From assembly GCF_003269295.1 (NCBI RefSeq), contig NZ_QLTT01000002.1, positions 248,001 through 312,000 of the forward strand: a DNA stretch of 64,000 nt, in the 5' to 3' direction. Within the stretch, counting starts at the first letter, position 1; every line of letters begins with the position of its first letter. This document shows positions 55,536-60,749 of this stretch, in pieces. Under the pieces are notes generated by a model. That model worked only from the letters and a program-made list of their open reading frames with translations, did not search any database and was not told where the DNA came from. Both the position numbers and the translations under genes were made by a program. This DNA comes from Lentzea atacamensis. Its GTDB lineage: Bacteria > Actinomycetota > Actinomycetes > Mycobacteriales > Pseudonocardiaceae.

Positions 55536-55611
55536 AATCTGTTAAACGTGATCCATGCCACAGTATGATGGCTCTGTAACAGTGCACGTCGGTCCGCCGA
55601 TGTCACGGTTG

Positions 55612-55665
55612 ACCTCGCGGTGCTGTCGGACCCCCGACCTGGCAGCACCGCGAGGTTTCTTGTTT
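55612..55665 (+). promoter_or_regulatory. Terminator-like hairpin just upstream of the dehydrogenase gene
   Basis: ACCTCGCGGTGCTG (55612-55625) pairs perfectly with its complement (55643-55656) around a 17-nt loop, then TTCTTGTTT. The stem ends about 20 bp before the ATG at 55676. A transcript starting after the previous terminator would have to pass it, so it could be an attenuator or the end of a short RNA. Confidence 0.6.
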
Positions 55666-59075: not shown

Positions 59076-59477
59076 CGCCCGATTATCGGGCCGCATCGTC
59101 TTGCACACGAACGTGTTTCGCCACGTCGAGCCGGTCGAAGGCTCCTGCCGGTGGCGCCGCCTGTTGTGACGTTACGACTGTCCTGGCGTGCCGCCGTGCG
59201 AGACCCTGCGGTTTCGAATATCGGTTGGTGGCTTACCAATGGGATCGTGTGATTTTTTCGGGGAAACCTCGGGGCGTGCCCATTCAGGGGGTGTGTGTCC
59301 AGACGTGGAACCAGAACACTTTTGGGTGAAGTAGGAGCACGAAGTGCGGATGTCCACTTGCTACGGCCGGAGTCGGAGCTAATGTGGCGGCACTCGATTC
59401 ACCGCGTGCATTCCTCCCGGACCTGGGCAGGACGCAATCTGAGCGGTCCCTATCTTGTAGGAAACGGAGAAGCATCC
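59076..59477. other. Long 5' region of the three-repeat secreted protein gene
   Basis: About 400 bp without a gene between divergent starts. The middle is lower in GC (TTTCGAATATCGG, GTGATTTTTTCGGGG near 59210-59265). A possible -10, TATCTT (59451-59456), lies 22 bp before the ATG. The length suggests complex regulation, as for developmentally controlled surface proteins, but no known operator was found. Confidence 0.4.
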
Positions 59478-60278
59478 ATGTTCAATTTGGACGCCCTGCG
59501 TCGGACGGTCCTTGGGACTGTGGCGGCCACCCTCGCGGTCGGTTCCGTTCTGGCATCGTCGGCTGTCGCCTCGGCAGGCGAGGACGACGTGAAGGCGTCT
59601 GACTTCAGCCAGGTCGCAGCCGCTCCGGTGTACAACAACGGTTCGATCAACCAGATCGTGGGCACCGTCGGTGCGCCGCTGGTCAACGTGAACATCCCGT
59701 GCCCCGCTCCGTGGCAGCAGGGTGGCGTGTCCGGCTCCGACTACAACGCCTGCAACAACGCTCCGGTCTACCAGCAGGACGCGCTGGTGGCCGGTGACCT
59801 GGGTGGTGGCGAGGCCGACGCCCGCAACGAGGACTTCGGTCAGACCGCCGCTGCTCCGGTGTACAACGAAGGTTCGATCGACCAGCTCGTCGGTACCGTC
59901 GGTGCGCCGCTGGTCAACGTGAACGCTCCGTGCATCGCCCCCTGGAACCAGGGTGGCGTGGCCGGCGCCGACTACAACGCCTGCAACAACGCCGCGGTCT
60001 TCCAGCAGGGCGCGCCGGTGGCCGGTGACCTCGTCGGCACCGAGCGGACCTGGGCGGACCAGCCGACCGGCTTCGGCCAGACCGCTGCCGCTCCGGTGTA
60101 CAACAACGGTTCGATCAACCAGCTCGTGGGCACCGTCGGTGCGCCGCTGGTCAACGTGAACATCCCGTGCCCCGCTCCGTGGCAGCAGGGTGGTCTGCTG
60201 GGTTCGGACTACAACGCCTGCAGCAATGCTCCGGTCTACCAGCAGGACGCGGCCGTCAAGGGCAGCCTGCTCGGCTGA
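59478..60278 (+). CDS. Secreted protein of three two-cysteine repeats (chaplin-like surface protein candidate)
   Basis: 266 residues. The signal peptide ends near residue 33 (LAVGSVLASSAVASA). The mature part is three tandem repeats of 77-79 residues (starting at 43, 120 and 199), each AAAPVYNNGSINQLVGTVGA, PLVNVNIPCPAPW, QQGG, DYNACNNAPVYQQ. Each has one Cys pair 17 residues apart, valine-rich strands, Asn/Gln-rich strands and no charged core. Such Cys-paired, beta-prone Asn/Gln/Val repeats recall chaplins, but the sequence is not a chaplin and has no LPXTG or membrane anchor. GGAG at 59466-59469 precedes the ATG. The gene is flanked by a long promoter region and a strong terminator. I do not know its function. 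Confidence 0.8.
   Translation: MFNLDALRRTVLGTVAATLAVGSVLASSAVASAGEDDVKASDFSQVAAAPVYNNGSINQIVGTVGAPLVNVNIPCPAPWQQGGVSGSDYNACNNAPVYQQDALVAGDLGGGEADARNEDFGQTAAAPVYNEGSIDQLVGTVGAPLVNVNAPCIAPWNQGGVAGADYNACNNAAVFQQGAPVAGDLVGTERTWADQPTGFGQTAAAPVYNNGSINQLVGTVGAPLVNVNIPCPAPWQQGGLLGSDYNACSNAPVYQQDAAVKGSLLG
59604..60278 (+). repeat. Three tandem ~231-237-bp coding repeats
   Basis: Units start at about 59604, 59835 and 60072. Units 1 and 3 are nearly identical in DNA as well as protein (for example GGTGCGCCGCTGGTCAACGT in each). Unit 2 differs more, at PCIAPWNQ and FQQGAP. The identity suggests recent duplication or gene conversion. Confidence 0.9.
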
Positions 60279-60320
60279 TGAGGCCCGGTCTGCTCAAGAC
60301 CGAAGCCACACTCCGAAAGT

Positions 60321-60366
60321 GACGGATGGATGTCGCCTCCGAGGGTTCGGGCGACATCCATCCGTC
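60321..60366 (+). terminator. Hairpin after the three-repeat gene
   Basis: Perfect 16-bp arms GACGGATGGATGTCGC (60321-60336) and complement (60351-60366), 14-nt loop, no clear T tract. Confidence 0.8.
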
Positions 60367-60520
60367 CAGGCCGGACATTCTTGCTTGCGCTTGCAAGAAA
60401 CGTCGGGAACGTTTCTCCGTCTTTGTTGACCGCTGAGTTGGCCGGATCTTCGGGGCTGGCTGCCTGAACCTTGCTCTGTCCTGGCCGGACAGACGCATGG
60501 TGTCGACGAGCGGAATGTCG

Positions 60521-60557
60521 AAGCCCTGTTCGCCGCCACGGCGAACAGGGCTTCTTT
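60521..60557 (+). terminator. Strong intrinsic terminator
   Basis: Perfect 15-bp arms AAGCCCTGTTCGCCG (60521-60535) and complement (60539-60553), 3-nt loop CCA, followed by CTTTT. No coding gene ends just upstream. Confidence 0.88.
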
Positions 60558-60726
60558 TCGGCCGGAGAAGGAATCCGGGCCTGCCGGAATGAACTGAACA
60601 AACAGACATGGTCCTCTGGAGGGGCAGATCCCGTACGCATCGTCTCCGTGCGCGGCGCACTTGGCATCCCAACGCCTCGACGGTGTCGACCGGCTCACAG
60701 GCCTGCCCACGGCGCAGGTGCTGCCA

Positions 60727-60745
60727 CGATCCTCGGGCAGGATCG
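60727..60745. promoter_or_regulatory. Inverted repeat before the dienelactone hydrolase gene
   Basis: CGATCCT (60727-60733), CGGGC, AGGATCG (60739-60745): perfect 7-bp arms ending 4 bp before ATG 60750. This leaves no room for a normal ribosome site, so the message may be leaderless and repressor-controlled. Confidence 0.5.
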
Positions 60746-60749
60746 TCTT

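Follow-up and report, generated by a model that had tools for sequence, protein, structure and literature searches.

A putative family of two-cysteine coat proteins, fused into repeats in Lentzea and arrayed as single units at a locus otherwise held by chaplins

Introduction

The sheath proteins known from streptomycetes are the chaplins and the rodlins. Chaplins (PF03777, ChpA-C; ChpA-H in Streptomyces coelicolor) are small secreted proteins with two cysteines per domain, of which multi-domain forms exist, and the accessible text of PMC13251363 gives three GN motifs for the chaplin domain. Rodlins (NF041022, rodlin_AB) are likewise small and secreted, and the 12 sequences that we recovered with a rodlin pattern all have two cysteines. 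According to PMC4255298, rodlins are lost readily in streptomycetes and are missing from some species. What coats the rodlin-free species is a fair question. The sortase-dependent CwpA and CwpB of Actinoplanes missouriensis are, in PMC13251363, hydrophobic surface proteins of low similarity to chaplins that are argued to act like long chaplins. NepA of S. coelicolor is described as an insoluble spore-wall protein in the available text of PMC5693915.

We analysed a stretch of 64,000 nucleotides from Lentzea atacamensis (the window; contig NZ_QLTT01000002.1, positions 248,001 to 312,000), in which a preliminary description had proposed a secreted protein of three cysteine-pair repeats as a chaplin-like, self-assembling coat in an unrecognised repeat format. 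Here we compare this protein, its copies in Lentzea and its single-unit relatives with chaplins and rodlins.

Results

The open reading frame runs on the forward strand from an ATG at 59478 to a TGA at 60278 and encodes a putatively secreted protein of 266 residues built of three two-cysteine units. By eye, residues 1 to about 33 (59478-59576) form a signal peptide, which suggests that the protein is exported, and the C-terminus carries no anchor; both features had been claimed in the preliminary description. Repeat comparison delimits unit 1 (59601-59813, Cys 75 and Cys 92), unit 2 (59832-60044, Cys 152 and Cys 169) and unit 3 (60069-60275, Cys 231 and Cys 248) on the same strand, the 213-nt unit starting at 59601, 59832 and 60069 with spacings of 231 and 237 nt. 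The three cysteine pairs, each 17 residues apart, and the VGAPLVNVN motif of all three units are as first described; of the other motif reported for every repeat, units 1 and 3 have the exact form AAAPVYNNGSI, and unit 2 reads AAAPVYNEGSI. The claim that did not hold is that units 1 and 3 are near-identical in DNA: their identity is 86% over 207 nt, barely above that of units 1 and 2 (84.5%), and over 213 nt units 2 and 3 are each 84% identical to unit 1. From residue 34 on, the composition is 15% Ala, 13% Gly, 11% Val, 10% Asn and 8% Gln, and the 233 residues include 4 Lys or Arg and 19 Asp or Glu; charges are few, as claimed, but acidic on balance. Same-unit comparisons between the two other Lentzea that carry the gene gave a dN/dS of ~0.08-0.09 for units 1, 2 and 3, indicating that the three-unit frame is coding and that the protein is under purifying selection. 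AlphaFold2, supplied with shallow Lentzea alignments, returned a mean pLDDT of 36.9 for one unit and 31.5 for the whole protein, too low for the models to be of use.

The gene has its own putative control sequences on both sides, as had been proposed. Upstream lie 369 nt of intergenic DNA, measured from the listed start of the neighbouring gene, with a block conserved across the four Lentzea copies of the gene. Within this block, a promoter-like pair (TTGCTA, 16 nt, TAATGT; 59358-59385, forward strand) was found by eye; a consensus scan listed no sigma-70 site at this position. The ribosome-binding site GGAG (59466-59469, forward strand), 8 nt 5' of the ATG, is invariant in the four copies. 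Downstream, also on the forward strand, a perfect 17-bp inverted repeat at 60321-60366 forms a hairpin that is kept in the four copies (among its 20 predicted pairs, two are changed on both sides and four are broken in one sequence) and that is probably the terminator despite its missing T-run. It is followed by a second, conserved hairpin at 60520-60558 (forward strand), which ends in TTTT and was hence not listed by a terminator scan whose rule calls for five T. Hairpins like the second one occur at other Lentzea loci, beside unrelated genes in the two loci that we read. A small RNA in the region 3' of the gene was considered and rejected, all six Rfam matches there being weak and below the gathering score. 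Elsewhere in the window, at 55606-55661, Rfam finds an F6 sRNA (RF01791) at 62.6 bits (gathering score 46).

The 9.3 Mb host genome carries a two-unit paralogue on another contig, and whole-length relatives, 82% identical, are present in Lentzea kentuckyensis and Lentzea alba. A protein search found carriers in 3 of 24 Lentzea genomes, and a profile of the 11 Lentzea units, run over 390 genomes belonging to the family, matched strongly in the same three. Searches of plasmids and phages gave no match. Weaker matches of the Lentzea profile from the family search (eight, E 0.015-0.05), the genus search (19, E up to 1.75, one shared with the family search) and the class search (three), all read on both strands, included no small secreted two-cysteine protein of the present type, and a match in Spirochaetia was discarded as the frame it follows is a short one within other genes.

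The four Lentzea copies align for ~330 bp 5' and ~290 bp 3' of the gene, beyond which their flanks differ. In the window, the gene is flanked by a HAD-type hydrolase gene, present in all 24 Lentzea genomes, and by a dienelactone-hydrolase-family gene (both named by Pfam). The site between them (59086-60749) is variable. At 4 of the 23 other Lentzea loci the two genes are directly joined with no insert, at nine the aligned portions of the pair are separated by 25 to about 970 nt, and at ten the dienelactone-hydrolase-family gene is absent from the stretch examined; 19 of the 23 junctions were viewed. The inserted segment in the window measures ~1.65 kb and lies between the two copies of a 17-bp direct repeat, which match imperfectly (15/17; left copy 59086-59102, right copy 60733-60749), and no recombinase was found. 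These comparisons suggest that the gene forms a compact cassette, running from promoter to terminator, which has changed its place in the genome; for this we claim no mechanism. The neighbours of the Lentzea copies that were tested or read are unrelated genes, and the ten that were scanned include neither a tyrosinase nor a glycan synthesis gene.

To databases of known families the protein is a stranger. The whole protein and unit 1 matched no Pfam family at E≤10, the whole protein matched no NCBIfam family at E≤10 and no PDB sequence, and so what had been named beforehand as grounds for refutation, a confident hit on some enzyme or binding family, appeared in none of the three; a new family in a repeat format is supported. 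When the profile was run class-wide over 394 genomes, the one distant match that was credible lay in genome G648, where three small secreted proteins lie in tandem, each with the core C-x-APW ... Y-x-AC ... Q and the end GGL[LI]L. We call such tandem single-unit genes the array. When the 11 Lentzea units were compared with the first three single-unit proteins, hhalign gave a score of 44.2 (E 1.3e-8, probability 95.6), the best of 200 column shuffles reaching 21.6. Lentzea and array proteins have the core C-x-APW ... Y-x-A-C ... Q in common, and over 13 Lentzea and array sequences 18 columns are invariant, including both cysteines, APW and YxAC. Every one of the 11 Lentzea units has two cysteines and the sequence DYNAC, and two cysteines, [AV]PW and [HKR]YxxC are found in 45 of 45 array domains, a count that holds partly by construction since the model was built from sequences picked by their cysteine pattern. 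For four single-unit proteins, neither Pfam nor NCBIfam gave a match that came close to a cut-off.

A joint profile run over the 394 genomes of the family of G648 matched 28 of them at E≤0.01. The array form is present in 18 of the 394 (best E <1e-15), 17 of which have three gene places and the remaining one two; we infer from its rodlins and chaplins that this family is Streptomycetaceae. Seven of the ten weaker genomes gave a single-gene form, form B, with the pattern GAP-[LF] ... VD-x-RC ... C, and the weak matches in G915 and G1127 look like chance on re-reading. By profile comparison the Lentzea units score 46.7 against a wider array set and 49.5 against form B, and the array set scores 39.5 against form B, with 0 of 40 shuffles as high in each case; on these profiles the Lentzea units, the single-unit array proteins and form B are homologous. 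A 124-aa frame in genome G1115 (contig C10, 235064-235201), with the sequence GEPLVEALVPCPAPW ... YLSC (VPCPAPW...YLSC), matches the joint profile at E 2.5e-6 and is perhaps a third form. Around form B, no gene other than form B itself is common to three or more of six stretches, and these six stretches hold no short-chaplin or rodlin match. As far as open-access texts go, we found no description of the family or of the locus exchange reported below, which does not establish its absence from print.

Array copies are 81-82% identical within a genome compared with 73-74% at the same position between genomes (13 genomes, after three with only two detected ORFs were dropped). We therefore rejected a stable identity of the copies T1, T2 and T3; the excess of within-genome identity indicates that the copies have been homogenised or recently duplicated. 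This pattern is consistent with, though not proof of, interchangeable structural units.

The kinship with chaplins that the preliminary description had implied is not supported, profile scores being at shuffle level. We compared profiles with 21 short, NPA-bearing chaplin domains and 36 other chaplin domains from 29 loci. Against short and other chaplins respectively, the Lentzea units scored 8.95 and 10.8 (levels reached by 41 and 19 of 60 shuffles), the array 7.8 and 10.7 (57 and 29 of 60), form B 8.7 and 9.7 (27 and 18 of 40) and all forms together 8.9 and 12.6, the latter the best score (22 and 2 of 40). Short against other chaplins, the positive control, scored 94.7 with 0 of 60 shuffles as high. 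The Pfam ChpA-C model matched neither the Lentzea protein nor one array protein nor four single-unit proteins, and, in contrast to the three GN motifs of a chaplin domain, spaced 12-13 residues apart, the Lentzea protein lacks the GN dipeptide altogether. The 12 rodlins gave the same picture: hhalign scored the Lentzea units at 12.2 (16 of 60 shuffles as high), and the array, form B and all forms scored within column shuffles. One form B protein aligned with rodlin_AB over its first 51 residues at E 2.6 and 8 bits (cut-off 75). At the level that profiles can detect, the family thus appears unrelated to chaplins or rodlins.

Of the 18 array loci, all but those of G971 and G1041 were fetched as long stretches. 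In 14 of these 16, the genes run dehydrogenase, MelC2, MelC1, an unnamed gene, SecA, array, SecB, glycosyltransferase, Wzy-type polymerase, polysaccharide deacetylase and glycosyltransferase (the Pfam names come from two genomes, one of which served for the dehydrogenase). The glycan genes directly adjoin the array in 15 of the 16 loci; in G1139 array and glycan genes lie together with MelC ~17 kb away on the other side, and in G975 SecA alone adjoins the array within the stretch fetched. SecA (16 of 16 loci) and SecB (15 of 16) are small secreted proteins that accompany the array. They have no BLAST match in four chaplin-type loci, and one of each, searched against Pfam, had no match; that both come and go with the array suggests exchange as a module. 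The 16 array stretches are between 19 and 119.5 kb long; scanned with the rodlin profile and, for chaplins, with the short-chaplin profile only, they gave no match at E≤1e-4.

The four chaplin-type genomes (G446, G536, G498 and G525) were not a random sample, having been picked for a chaplin pair ~5 kb apart. In all four, chaplins stand on both sides of MelC, there is no array, and the stretch fetched includes two or more of the glycan genes, counted from the first; rodlins follow beyond the glycan genes in both of the loci fetched over 40 kb. G446 had no match in the array search. PMC5650626 numbers the S. coelicolor genes chpG and chpF as sco2699 and sco2705. One family or the other, array or chaplins, occupies the syntenic locus. 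By what we take to be the melC gene numbers of S. coelicolor, the positions of sco2699 and sco2705 fit the two flanks of melC. Whole-genome chaplin and rodlin searches among array genomes covered G483, in which a 42-residue stretch of rodlin found nothing at E≤1 and which retains six chaplin matches elsewhere, indicating that the exchange is local.

Promoters also set the two gene sets apart. With CGTAAC-16-CGTTGA as what we take to be the BldN-type consensus, and with start codons assigned mechanically, sites with at most two mismatches precede 7 of 13 chaplin genes in the four chaplin-type genomes (2-3% in shuffles); these seven are the ones beside MelC, and the sites lie 58-89 nt ahead of the gene. 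No such site was found before any of 45 array genes, 31 SecA or SecB genes, four rodlin genes or four Lentzea copies. A BldN-type promoter for the array was therefore rejected, and regulation of the array differs from that of chaplins. A conserved near-palindrome, TTATGC[AG]TGCATATACGGGTTTC, lies 5' of the first array gene, for example in G1019, G483 and G1160, at a distance that varies with the start codon taken; it is a possible operator.

Discussion

The most reasonable explanation, which we hold at a probability of roughly 0.6, is that an unrelated two-cysteine family does chaplin-like coat work, its units being fused into one chain in Lentzea. Of the chaplin-like coat first proposed, the probable surface coat stands, with single-unit relatives at the place of chaplins, and the kinship to chaplins is not supported. 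The Lentzea protein would lose its signal peptide on export; a single disulfide would probably join the two cysteines within each of the three ~70-residue units, and the Val/Asn/Gln-rich stretch ahead of the first cysteine probably forms strands, which would pack against the strands of neighbouring units. Packed in this way, the units would cover the outer wall of aerial hyphae or spores with an insoluble layer. In one group of what we infer to be Streptomycetaceae the same part would be played by single-unit genes, usually three, at the chaplin place between tyrosinase and glycan genes, and in Lentzea by units fused into one polypeptide. Surface location, assembly, disulfides and developmental timing are all inferred steps of this model, and as the Lentzea copies sit beside unrelated genes, the argument from the locus is borrowed from their relatives. 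Exchange at a locus can also have causes other than like function.

Other readings share much of this evidence. The proteins might be small, soluble and secreted, serving as inhibitors of a protease or of tyrosinase, as a tyrosinase substrate or as an antimicrobial rather than as a structural coat; beside MelC1 and MelC2, they might be tyrosine-bearing substrates cross-linked by tyrosinase, or tyrosinase helpers. A conserved tyrosine does stand three residues before the second cysteine in every array domain ([HKR]YxxC, 45/45) and every Lentzea unit (DYNAC, 11/11), and tyrosinase genes are near the array in 14 of the 16 loci. The same tyrosinase genes adjoin chaplins in the chaplin-type loci, however, and so are not specific to the array; with no tyrosinase among the scanned Lentzea neighbours and no family match near a cut-off, we judge a soluble role unlikely. 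Similar reasoning applies to a protein that is bound to the wall and acts in the matrix or in adhesion, in connection with the adjoining glycan pathway, instead of a coat at the air interface. Glycan genes next to the array in 15 of the 16 loci argue for it, but they adjoin chaplins too in other genomes and the scanned Lentzea neighbours include none for glycan synthesis, which makes this reading, to our mind, somewhat less likely still.

It is quite improbable that the array consists of extremely diverged chaplins, descended from those whose place it has taken. Such descent would account for the shared locus, the two cysteines, secretion and a composition rich in Val and Asn, yet all profile scores are at shuffle level (at best 12.6, 2/40) against 94.7 for the chaplin control, ChpA-C finds no match, and the coming and going of SecA and SecB with the array points to the exchange of a module.

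A coat of unrelated two-cysteine proteins would resemble chaplins in size, secretion, cysteine pair, multi-domain forms and, for the array, the syntenic place beside MelC and glycan genes, and would differ from them in lacking sequence or profile similarity and any BldN-type promoter that we could find. From rodlins the family likewise differs in profile, with no NCBIfam match to the Lentzea protein. The likeness to CwpA/CwpB and to NepA is one of description: as portrayed in the accessible texts, the former are a precedent for a coat unlike chaplins, differing in their dependence on sortase from the Lentzea protein with no anchor seen by eye, and the latter is an insoluble protein of the spore wall. 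We extend the coat reading only tentatively, at odds a little short of even, to an undescribed actinobacterial exoskeleton superfamily that, as a module with SecA and SecB, displaced chaplins and rodlins from the developmental surface locus in one group of Streptomycetaceae and that became a mobile two- or three-unit cassette in Lentzea. The array is an unrelated coat candidate at the chaplin locus with a definite gene set; if the candidate is confirmed, a sheath can evolve anew and be swapped in modular form. For biophysics, the fused protein of Lentzea is a multi-unit chain that comes ready made.

The host genome also encodes long multi-repeat chaplin-like proteins. Giant ORFs with frames of 910-1327 aa (C2 at 210 and 133 kb, C11 at 33 kb) contain repeats rich in Gly, Asn and Val with matches to the chaplin profile. 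By eye they resemble the two-cysteine family; the profile test was equivocal and gave 14.0 (2 of 60 shuffles as high), one giant protein alone scored 8.6 (39 of 60), and the giant ORFs scored 8.9 against all forms (6 of 40) and 11.6 against the array (3 of 60). Separately, a 272-aa ORF (C17 at 37.2 kb) has three chaplin-like cysteine-pair segments, a Pro/Glu/Gln linker and a C-terminus that resembles a sorting signal, with LSKTG, a hydrophobic stretch and a basic end.
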